From Halobacterium sp. KA-4 (GTDB taxonomy: Archaea; Halobacteriota; Halobacteria; Halobacteriales; Halobacteriaceae): DNA of 64,000 nt. The DNA lies in contig NZ_JAJJZG010000006.1 in assembly GCF_021028995.1 (NCBI RefSeq), positions 62,001-126,000 of the forward strand, given 5' to 3'. The notes below the pieces were generated by a model, which saw nothing but the letters and a program-made list of their open reading frames with translations, had not been told where the DNA came from and ran no database searches. The position numbers and the translations under genes were made by a program. Of the stretch, positions 49,163-51,803 are shown piece after piece (the stretch's first letter is position 1; every line of letters begins with the position of its first letter).

Positions 49163-49175
49163 TTACTACGAGTAA
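49163..49175. promoter_or_regulatory. Palindrome upstream of the microprotein gene
   Basis: TTACTACGAGTAA is a 13-base inverted repeat (5-base arms, 3-base centre) in an AT-rich stretch, about 84 bases before the microprotein ATG. It could be an operator. It resembles half-sites of TrmB (TACT and GAGTA), but the spacer is two bases instead of seven or eight, so a TrmB site is unlikely. Confidence 0.4.
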
Positions 49176-49213
49176 TTTTCCTATATTTTATTTCTGTTAT
49201 CTTCAAATAAATT

Positions 49214-49222
49214 GAATATAAC
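49214..49222 (+). promoter_or_regulatory. TATA box of the microprotein gene
   Basis: The sequence gaatataac lies about 29 bases before the ATG at 49247. The 49150-49225 stretch is far more AT-rich than anything else in the window. Confidence 0.6.
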
Positions 49223-49246
49223 CCGGGAGTATGGTGTAGGTAGACG

Positions 49247-49381
49247 ATGACAGACAGTAAGTTCACGCAGTTCCTCAAGGACAACCCGCGAATGATCGGC
49301 GTGCTGTTCAGCCTGATGGTGTTCCTGTCAAGCACGGGGGCGGCCGCCGCGGCCCACGGAACCACGACGAGCGGCCCCTAA
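49247..49381 (+). CDS. 44-residue membrane microprotein (DUF7503-like)
   Basis: Starts MTDSKFTQFLKDNPRMIGVL and has one hydrophobic helix at ~17-36 (IGVLFSLMVFLSSTGAAAAA) that could be a membrane anchor or a cleavable signal, and ends HGTTTSGP. The TQFLKDNPRMIGVLF core matches the haloarchaeal DUF7503 family as I recall it, which I believe often accompanies CHAT-type protease genes. Its 3' end overlaps the convergent CHAT gene by four bases. Expected product: small, membrane-bound, possibly a protease substrate or trigger. Confidence 0.75.
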   Translation: MTDSKFTQFLKDNPRMIGVLFSLMVFLSSTGAAAAAHGTTTSGP

Positions 49382-51459
49382 TCGAGTTCGTTCTGCAGCA
49401 GTTCGTCACTCCATGTGAGTTCACCGTCGAACAGCACTGGGACCACGCCACGGTTGAAGAACTCCCGCAGGTCACTCACCGTCACGTCGAATGTATCGAT
49501 GACACCGGAGTTCAGGTACTGCTTTGTGTTCTTCTTGATGTGAGGGAGGTACAGCGACCCGATGGACGACCGGGGGGTTGGATAGCCCCGTATCGTGAAC
49601 TCGTAGCCCTCCGCGGTCCTCGTGAGTTCGGTCGAAACCGGCGTCCCATCCTTGCTCTGCACGAGCTGGAGGGTGCCGTCGCCGATGGTGATGTACTTGC
49701 TCCCGAACAGCGTCACGTTTCGTGCGACTGACAGCCCCGCTTGCAGTGTGAAGCCGTTGTTTAGTAAGCGGGCGAGAGCACGTCCGATACGAACCGCGGG
49801 GTCGTTGCTGATGTTCGCGAGCGTGACGATGCCGCCGTAGCTCCCACGTTCGACGAGTGCGTCACCCTGCTCGTAGGACTTGCAGGCGTTCAGCAGGAAC
49901 GCGTCAACGTTGACCGCTTCTAAAGTCCGCGCGTCGAACATCCCATCCGTGCACTGGAAGCCGCCCTTGTCGACGTGACCGATATAGTGTAGGAAATCCG
50001 TGTTTTTTCGGAGGACATCCGCGAACTGCTCGCCGGTGAGGTCGTAGTGGACGGTGATGTCAAACTCGAAGATGTCCCTTGTACCATAGAACTTCTCGAC
50101 GATGTCCTCCTCGTCCATCTCGTCCTCGTTGCAGACGATGTCAATACTGATGGAATCCTGCTCGCGGGCAGGCCGGTCGAGCCGGCGGAGGTATGATTCC
50201 ACTCGCGTCTTACTCGCGCCGAGCGGGAACTCCTCCGCAATCCACGCGTGCTCAATAGCGCCCGTCTCGTCGGGCTTGACAACGTTCGACCAGTCGGTCG
50301 CGGACTCCGTCTCCGAGGTACTCCGCACCGTCGCGCCGTCCGTGCGGTAGAACTCGGTCAGTTCCTCGGGTTCGTCGTGGACTTCCGGCTCCTCATCGTC
50401 CTCGGGGATGCGGACTGTCGCGAGTTCGTTCGCGACGAACGGCAGTGTCTCGACGTGGTCCGGGTCGGGATCGATGTCTGCGGTCAGCTTCCACTGGGGG
50501 ATGTTGGGGTCGGTGACGTCGTAGGGAACGTCGAGGTACGTGCGGATCCGCTCCGCAGAAGTCGCCTCGTAAACGGCCGCGAGGTCGATCGGGAGGTCGT
50601 CTTCGACCGCCGCGCGCTCGTGGAGGTCGACCTCGTAGAACCCCTCAGTTCGGGTGACACAGTCGAGGAAAAAGACGTGCTTGAGCAGCTTCGAGACTTC
50701 GGCCTCGAAGCCGCGCTCCGTGTCGAGGTCGTAGCGTTCGCCACCGGCGTCGAGGACGCGCTCGTCTCCAGGAACAACGTCGGCACCGAGGTAGTACGCT
50801 AGTGAACTTACGCGGAAGAGGTCGCCGTAGTCGCGTGGAATCTCGATGGTGACACCGGTCTCGGGGCGCTCGAATACGTCCGGCGCATCAAAGCCGTCGC
50901 CGCGCTCGATGAGCGGCGGGTGGCCGCGGAGCGTCGGGAAGGACCGCTCCGGCGACGTAGTCTTGAGCGCCGAACTGCTGAGCGCAACCGCGCGCATCGC
51001 ATCCTCGACGTCGTCGCCGATCGTAATCGACCCGGCGGGTGATTCGTGGAGTGAACGTACACCCAACTGGAACGTGGCCGCTTCGTCGAAGTCGACGTGC
51101 GTCGTGTTCTCCGACCAGTGGACAGAGAATCCGCTCTCGACCACGATTTGGAGTTTCATCGGCCCGAGCGGCAAGTCCAGCGAGTACCAGCCCGGGGGTC
51201 GTTCGGTGTCTCGCTGGTTCACGGACTCACTGACCATCGTCCCCGTGTCGTCCCACAGATAAACGTTCACCAGCCGCGGAATCTCCAGTTCTCCGGCTGT
51301 GACGGTGACGGCGTTGTCCACCGGGAGGACGAACTGTTCGGTGTCCGTCTCGACGGGGTCGACCACCCGGTCAGTGTACAGCTCGAACTGCGCGTTCTCG
51401 ATTGGGTCGCGCACGAGGAGGCCGTCCGGGTTGACCAGCGGCTCGAACTCCGGTCTCAT
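49378..51459 (-). CDS. CHAT-domain (caspase-like) cysteine protease
   Basis: 693 residues. Residues ~1-340 are beta-rich with no named fold that I recognise (VDNAVTVTAGELEIPRLVNV looks like a strand repeat). From ~435 comes a caspase/CHAT fold: SISIDIVCNEDEMDEEDIVE (beta strand), TDFLHYIGHVDKGGF with catalytic His495, and NVDAFLLNACKSYEQGDALV with catalytic Cys526, then RGSYGGIVTLANISNDPAVR. No membrane segment or signal is seen, so it is cytosolic. It lies between birA and pccA and overlaps a possible upstream coupled frame and the convergent microprotein gene. Confidence 0.87.
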   Translation of the reverse strand: MRPEFEPLVNPDGLLVRDPIENAQFELYTDRVVDPVETDTEQFVLPVDNAVTVTAGELEIPRLVNVYLWDDTGTMVSESVNQRDTERPPGWYSLDLPLGPMKLQIVVESGFSVHWSENTTHVDFDEAATFQLGVRSLHESPAGSITIGDDVEDAMRAVALSSSALKTTSPERSFPTLRGHPPLIERGDGFDAPDVFERPETGVTIEIPRDYGDLFRVSSLAYYLGADVVPGDERVLDAGGERYDLDTERGFEAEVSKLLKHVFFLDCVTRTEGFYEVDLHERAAVEDDLPIDLAAVYEATSAERIRTYLDVPYDVTDPNIPQWKLTADIDPDPDHVETLPFVANELATVRIPEDDEEPEVHDEPEELTEFYRTDGATVRSTSETESATDWSNVVKPDETGAIEHAWIAEEFPLGASKTRVESYLRRLDRPAREQDSISIDIVCNEDEMDEEDIVEKFYGTRDIFEFDITVHYDLTGEQFADVLRKNTDFLHYIGHVDKGGFQCTDGMFDARTLEAVNVDAFLLNACKSYEQGDALVERGSYGGIVTLANISNDPAVRIGRALARLLNNGFTLQAGLSVARNVTLFGSKYITIGDGTLQLVQSKDGTPVSTELTRTAEGYEFTIRGYPTPRSSIGSLYLPHIKKNTKQYLNSGVIDTFDVTVSDLREFFNRGVVPVLFDGELTWSDELLQNELD

Positions 51460-51755
51460 CGCTGCACCTGCTCGGGGCGTGGCCGACGTGGTTCGGTCAG
51501 GCGCTCGCTACACGAGCGCGCAGTCCGGGGCGTCGACCGAATCGGTTCGCGGCTGGGGGTGTCGTCTGCCATGGCACTGGTGTCGCGTCGCAGTACCGGA
51601 CTGTCGCAGGCGCGACGATTAGTCTGACCGGTGGCGAGAACCGTCGCCGCCGCGACGAACGATAGCGTGGCTCGCCGGCTTCGCCAACGATAGGCTGCTG
51701 ACAAATCAACGAGCGTCCACGGCTCGTCGCACGACGACGCCGCCACCCTCGGCAT
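51456..51755 (-). CDS. Possible 99-residue protein coupled to the CHAT gene
   Basis: A 99-codon frame whose TGA overlaps the ATG of the CHAT gene (ATGA) and whose ATG sits about 31 bases after a clear TATA element, so both promoter spacing and coupling support it. Against it, the product is Arg-rich and not acidic, unlike other proteins here. A shorter version from ATG 51572 (MADDTPSREPIRS) is also possible. Family unknown. It may be the first gene of the protease transcript or only its leader. Confidence 0.35.
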   Translation of the reverse strand: MPRVAASSCDEPWTLVDLSAAYRWRSRRATLSFVAAATVLATGQTNRRACDSPVLRRDTSAMADDTPSREPIRSTPRTARSCSERLTEPRRPRPEQVQR

Positions 51756-51780
51756 TATGTCACAGAGGGATAGAACAGGT

Positions 51781-51790
51781 AATAAAAATT
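51781..51790 (-). promoter_or_regulatory. TATA box of the CHAT transcript
   Basis: On the minus strand AATTTTTATT is centred about 31 bases before the ATG at 51755. It is the best TATA match in the 231 bases between pccA and the protease gene and implies independent transcription of the cassette. Confidence 0.55.
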
Positions 51791-51803
51791 CGGGCGTCGG
51801 TAG

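Follow-up and report, generated by a model that had tools for sequence, protein, structure and literature searches.

A convergent protease and microprotein gene pair

The locus lies in a 64,000-nucleotide stretch of Halobacterium sp. KA-4 DNA (contig NZ_JAJJZG010000006.1, positions 62,001 to 126,000), the whole of which is referred to as the window. Two genes, for a 693-residue and a 44-residue protein, converge here with stop codons overlapping by 4 bases; both open reading frames and their overlap lie where an initial annotation of the DNA had placed them. The features of the locus, in window coordinates, are as follows.

49166..49246, + strand: AT-rich promoter strip of the microprotein gene with a TTCAAATAAATTGAATAT-type element; low GC conserved
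49247..49381, + strand: DUF7503 microprotein MTDSKFTQFLKDNPRMIGVLFSLMVFLSSTGAAAAAHGTTTSGP, 44 aa; Pfam PF24335, 71 bits
49283..49291, + strand: juxtamembrane motif N-P-R ([HN]P[RK] family-wide)
49292..49348, + strand: hydrophobic helix, signal-peptide-like, with A-x-A at its end
49373..49378, + strand: C-terminal Gly-Pro codons (GGC CCC), under the strongest constraint within the partner
49378..51459, - strand: CHAT-type cysteine protease, 693 aa; AF2 pLDDT 85, Foldseek matches
49882..49884, - strand: codon of putative catalytic Cys526, invariant in 32 relatives
49975..49977, - strand: codon of putative catalytic His495, invariant in 32 relatives
51460..51803, - strand: 5' leader and promoter region of the CHAT gene; TATA-like strip at about 51780-51791

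The AT-rich strip in front of the microprotein gene, already pointed out in the initial annotation, is real: the 75 bases preceding the start codon have about 30% GC in most relatives. The TTCAAATAAATTGAATAT element within it (about 49199-49216) has similar counterparts in many genera and could be a core promoter or an operator. On the other side of the locus, the CHAT promoter strip can be aligned in most of the Halobacterium relatives compared, and the leader is variable, with out-of-frame indels. A 99-codon open reading frame at 51456-51755, whose start coincides with the end of the interval first annotated (51755), was considered as a third gene and rejected because of out-of-frame indels among Halobacterium sister species. 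The region is probably the CHAT 5' leader, not a gene.

We assign the 693-residue protein to the CHAT-type cysteine proteases (separase/gingipain/caspase fold). It matched no profile in any library searched, Pfam CHAT PF12770 included, and a sequence search against solved structures returned nothing useful. The assignment follows from the invariant His495/Cys526 dyad, from the PDB matches of an AF2 model and from Pfam CHAT matches of related proteins: PF12770 matches 8 of 32 relatives (best E = 3e-5), and a paralog on contig C51 of the same genome matches over the cut-off. The dyad, which the initial annotation had proposed from sequence, occurs in HxxGH and (N)xC contexts and is invariant in all 32 relatives. 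The AF2 model (mean pLDDT 85) has the CHAT fold, with His495 following strand 487-493 and Cys526 following strand 518-523. When compared with the PDB by Foldseek, the model matched SAVED-CHAT (8tl0, E = 5e-7, the top match), separase (5fc2, E = 6e-6, matched by the protease part), gingipain, TPR-CHAT and procaspase-3. The N-terminal half, in which no fold had been recognized earlier, could not be assigned to one here either; in the model it has a beta-rich stretch (approximately residues 1-147) and an alpha/beta region (roughly 150-350), after which comes a disordered linker (355-389). No export signal was seen in the CHAT sequence. Fold and invariant dyad together suggest a cytosolic, catalytically active endopeptidase of the caspase/separase type.

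Linkage of the two genes in haloarchaea

Among 292 haloarchaeal genomes, CHAT relatives were found in 271 and DUF7503 in 250. Both were present in 250 genomes, CHAT alone in 21, DUF7503 alone in 0 and neither in 21, a co-occurrence far beyond chance (Fisher p about 1e-20, shared ancestry not corrected for). The initial annotation had named DUF7503 proteins as neighbors of such genes; indeed, the microprotein is a member of PF24335, and in 31/31 DUF7503 loci examined the C terminus of a CHAT gene lies directly downstream on the opposite strand. Table coordinates for about 20 further genomes agree with the convergent order. Starting from the protease instead, each of the 29 top CHAT loci in relatives (L036-L064) has a convergent partner with a Gly-Pro end. 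In 80 named loci, the protein in the convergent slot ends in Gly-Pro in 74 cases and in Gly-Thr in 2 (L106 and L168); the loci lacking either kind of partner are L112, L173 and the tandem CHAT genes L123 and L124. As a control, a Gly-Pro open reading frame occupies the same slot for 36 of 1386 other open reading frames of at least 250 aa (2.6%). Since the loci taken for the genome survey and the named set were the best-scoring ones, these linkage fractions lean high.

The KA-4 protease groups with those of named Halobacterium species, which share the order birA-protease-pccA. Only in Halobacterium is the pair framed by birA and the pccA-like gene (they are close by in Halomicrococcus, L142); flanking genes differ between genera, and the pair thus stays together while its surroundings change. 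We conclude that the pairing of protease and microprotein reflects functional linkage, not chance. The refuting result named in the initial annotation, co-occurrence no better than chance, was thus not obtained. Outside the haloarchaeal class, distant CHAT relatives in four genomes had no comparable Gly-Pro partner, except for an overlapping open reading frame at L195 that is probably a chance occurrence.

This distribution bears on the proposal, made in the initial annotation, that the protease cuts or is set off by a membrane peptide and thereby kills the cell as a suicide or antiviral module. Immune functions are known for other CHAT proteases (SAVED-CHAT, Craspase), whose fold matches the one found here, and caspase-like activity in haloarchaea is tied to stress (PMC3615174). 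However, with DUF7503 in 86% and CHAT in 93% of the haloarchaeal species sampled, the distribution is near-universal and not patchy, which weakens the case for such a module. Neither protein matched a PADLOC profile at E values up to 1, searches of phage records and IMG/VR contigs gave no relative at the sensitivity applied, and no CRISPR-like array occurs within 40-62 kb of the window among the repeat families shown. There was no match to gasdermins either, the partner being a DUF7503 protein of 44 aa compared with about 250 aa for the gasdermin type. Some partners, moreover, lack a hydrophobic helix altogether (see below), so that the general output of the pair cannot be a peptide acting on membranes. 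A suicide or antiviral role is therefore improbable. The family is also found on 25 haloarchaeal plasmids, all typed as non-mobilizable.

The KA-4 genome contains a single copy of DUF7503 and three further CHAT paralogs, all of them without DUF7503. The CHAT paralogs of Halobacterium, which in some species lie in tandem, include L002 and L003 (contig C22 of the KA-4 genome) and L202-L204; the dyad of L003 is intact where aligned. A second CHAT class adjoins TbsP-type regulators (L004, on contig C51 of the KA-4 genome, L070-L072, L074-L079, L082 and L083), with a Gly-Pro partner in between at L074, L079, L082 and L083; the others, the KA-4 copy included, are without one. No Gly-Pro partner was found at L002-L004 or L202-L204. 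One genome, G124 (L073, L084, L089, L092 and L094), has 12 CHAT matches, several of them accompanied by differing long-tailed partners that end in GP or a near variant, which suggests lineage-specific diversification.

The C-terminal Gly-Pro of the partners

The 44-residue protein belongs to DUF7503 (71 bits against a cut-off of 27, E = 6e-20), evolves with dN far below dS relative to its Halobacterium relatives, and contains a helix whose best 19-mer has a mean Kyte-Doolittle value of 1.85. In 133 unique helix-type partners, anchored on [HN]P[RKQW], we found the pattern Y-L-x-x-[HN]-P-[RK]-M-x-G-[VA]-L-F-T-x-x-L-L-L-[ST]-Q-A-G-x-[AV]-A-A and, after it, a variable tail of 9 mostly uncharged residues whose last two are G (100%) and P (98%). 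The proline of the juxtamembrane motif is present in 100% and its R/K in 98% of this anchored set, conservation that is partly due to selection of the sequences by the anchor. The 'TQFLKDNPRMIGVLF core' singled out in the initial annotation does open the family signature, but the most constrained element, the C-terminal Gly-Pro, had been missed. At these two positions pN is 0 and pS 0.61; relatives use all three stop codons and every possible codon for Gly and Pro, showing that selection acts on the amino acids. The same end occurs in partners of other CHAT classes, TbsP-linked ones included, that are too diverged for the DUF7503 model (L067, L068, L073, L074, L079, L082, L083, L089 and L092). 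Hence a Gly-Pro end is common to the partners and is kept even in highly diverged ones. Across relatives, the codons at 49298-49309 of the window (residues 18-21, G-V-L-F) show unusual conservation at synonymous sites (GGC 94% versus 45% expected, CTG 89% versus 29% expected); the microprotein mRNA has no conserved RNA fold that would explain this.

Tail and helix are separated in a Haloplanus group of loci (L050, L054, L060, L062, L065, L066, L121 and L144). The protein in their convergent slot has no hydrophobic helix and consists of tandem 13-residue units such as YTADGNGGGISGP, each with an ISGP end. The number of repeats varies between species. The units of L054 are under strong purifying selection (pS 0.59, pN 0.023). 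In a FastTree tree of the CHAT proteins, several deep forks are weak, but the nesting of the repeat group among proteases with helix-type partners (L063, L120) is well supported. The helix was therefore lost, and the Gly-Pro unit was kept and multiplied. This natural experiment parts the Gly-Pro tail from the membrane helix and indicates that what the partner cannot do without is the tail, not insertion into the membrane. The [HN]P[RK] motif is absent from the Haloplanus partners, and thus is no universal cleavage site.

We considered whether the link between the genes might lie in nucleic acid, with convergent transcription or antisense overlap controlling CHAT and Gly-Pro-stop serving translation termination. 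The two genes invariably converge, in many cases so closely that their stop codons overlap, and synonymous sites are conserved in part of the core. Yet the 4-base overlap is common but dispensable (22/76 named loci; the gap ranges from -20 to +126), the choice of terminal codons is free, the internal Gly-Pro repeats are maintained at the protein level, and the RNA fold is not conserved. Such a link appears highly improbable.

A different possibility is that the microprotein is the precursor of a secreted peptide signal, made of a Sec signal peptide, an A-x-A site and a 9-residue Gly-Pro peptide, with CHAT as cytosolic receptor or processing enzyme. Ahead of the tail, position -3 is [AV] and position -1 is A throughout the family, and A-x-A cleavage fits most partners. 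HP and the end are separated by a distance of 32 in 110/133 and of 31 in 16/133 partners, which fixes the tail at 9 (8) residues. The tail is variable, is free of K/R/D/E in 114/133 partners and evolves faster than the core; Haloplanus partners, as arrays of tail units, resemble multi-copy pheromone precursors. On the other hand, the Haloplanus arrays have no signal peptide, helix conservation exceeds the needs of a plain signal peptide, and the dN/dS of the tail is 0.28, not above 1 (pS near saturation). We regard this explanation as unlikely. Its fullest form, in which the Gly-Pro microproteins would be ribosomal archaeal peptide signals, multi-copy in Haloplanus, that are read intracellularly by a caspase-fold receptor/protease, seems quite unlikely; if true, it would amount to a peptide signaling or self-recognition system across haloarchaea.

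A possible recognition pair and its relation to known systems

The explanation we favor, tentatively and at slightly less than an even chance, is that CHAT and its partner are a pair based on direct recognition, with the partner as substrate or pseudosubstrate. The large gene would encode a cytosolic cysteine endopeptidase of caspase/separase fold and the small convergent gene its private partner. The protease is proposed to recognize the conserved C-terminal Gly-Pro, since membrane, long-tailed and helix-less repeat partners have no other element in common; the hydrophobic helix, where present, would put the partner at the membrane. Docked by its Gly-Pro end, the partner may be cut elsewhere, perhaps after [HN]P[RK] at the membrane face, in a step that would serve regulation or the stress response and not suicide. 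In its narrower form, with the partner solely a dedicated substrate, the proposal is the likeliest single version but, taken alone, doubtful.

The main difficulty of direct recognition is topology. Positive charge ahead of the helix predicts an N-in orientation, which would put the Gly-Pro tail on the outer side of the membrane and a cytosolic protease on the inner one. The CHAT paralogs that have no Gly-Pro partner (L002-L004, L202-L204) also speak against it.

The inhibitor half of the recognition pair deserves separate mention: the partner could be a pseudosubstrate inhibitor or anchor that holds CHAT inactive at the membrane, an uncuttable Gly-Pro filling the active site. Proline after the scissile position blocks cleavage, and would prevent cutting here. 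Separase is among the closest folds, with securin as a parallel, and tandem Gly-Pro units would give a multivalent inhibitor. The predicted outside location of the tail is as much a problem as before, however, and separate promoters give no guarantee of balanced inhibitor dosage, making inhibition rather unlikely.

In many species the recognition pair may be controlled by the product of an immediately upstream gene, the KaiC-fold protein DUF7504. A DUF7504 (PF24336) gene lies on the same strand, no more than 400 bases upstream of CHAT, in 36/79 named loci (for example L205:1727-2455 and L206:1807-2499); its AF2 model (pLDDT 90) matches KaiC. In Halobacterium, this locus included, no DUF7504 gene is next to CHAT, and the family is multi-copy, with 10-15 copies in most species. 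Its presence at part of the named loci and its absence beside CHAT in Halobacterium rule out DUF7504 as an obligatory component.

In Haloferax volcanii, caspase-like activity is reported to be the dominant, stress-linked proteolytic activity, in a study that did not identify the protein responsible (PMC3615174). Our DUF7503 search has matches in the H. volcanii control genome, and the pair is present in other Haloferax species. From sequence, the CHAT family described here could be a source of haloarchaeal caspase activity. A protease family with the right fold and dyad and a private partner, occurring in most haloarchaeal species, is a candidate "archaeal caspase", and the Gly-Pro tail provides a sharp, mutable handle on it.

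Taken together, these data suggest a widespread, unstudied protease-partner system in nearly all haloarchaea. A full-text literature search found no paper naming DUF7503 and none on the CHAT domain in haloarchaea. Pfam covers the microprotein as DUF7503 and the upstream gene of many species as DUF7504, both listed as of unknown function; the Haloplanus, TbsP-linked and other diverged partners fall outside Pfam DUF7503.

Phr/AimP-type pheromone precursors are short and signal-peptide-like and carry a C-terminal peptide that is variable except for its fixed end, a form that the microprotein shares. In contrast to them, its gene is convergent, not co-directional, its partner is a protease, and its export would be a candidate property. 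Separase and securin are similar to the haloarchaeal pair in protease fold and in the presence of a private partner protein, but the haloarchaeal partner is unrelated in sequence and there is no cohesin context. SAVED-CHAT is the closest PDB fold, although no SAVED domain was recognized here and no CBASS or CRISPR neighbor was seen. In type III-E CRISPR (Craspase), as in haloarchaea, a CHAT-fold protease, Csx29 (TPR-CHAT), has a dedicated neighbor protein, Csx30. The haloarchaeal pair differs from Craspase in having no CRISPR-like array nearby, in its 44-residue Gly-Pro-tailed partner and in being near-universal in its class. C-terminal residues of Csx30 are strictly required for its cleavage by Csx29, removal of the last 20 abolishing it, while the cut site lies elsewhere (PMC10028731). 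Csx29/Csx30 is the best precedent for docking of a CHAT substrate by its C terminus, as proposed for the Gly-Pro end of the haloarchaeal partner.
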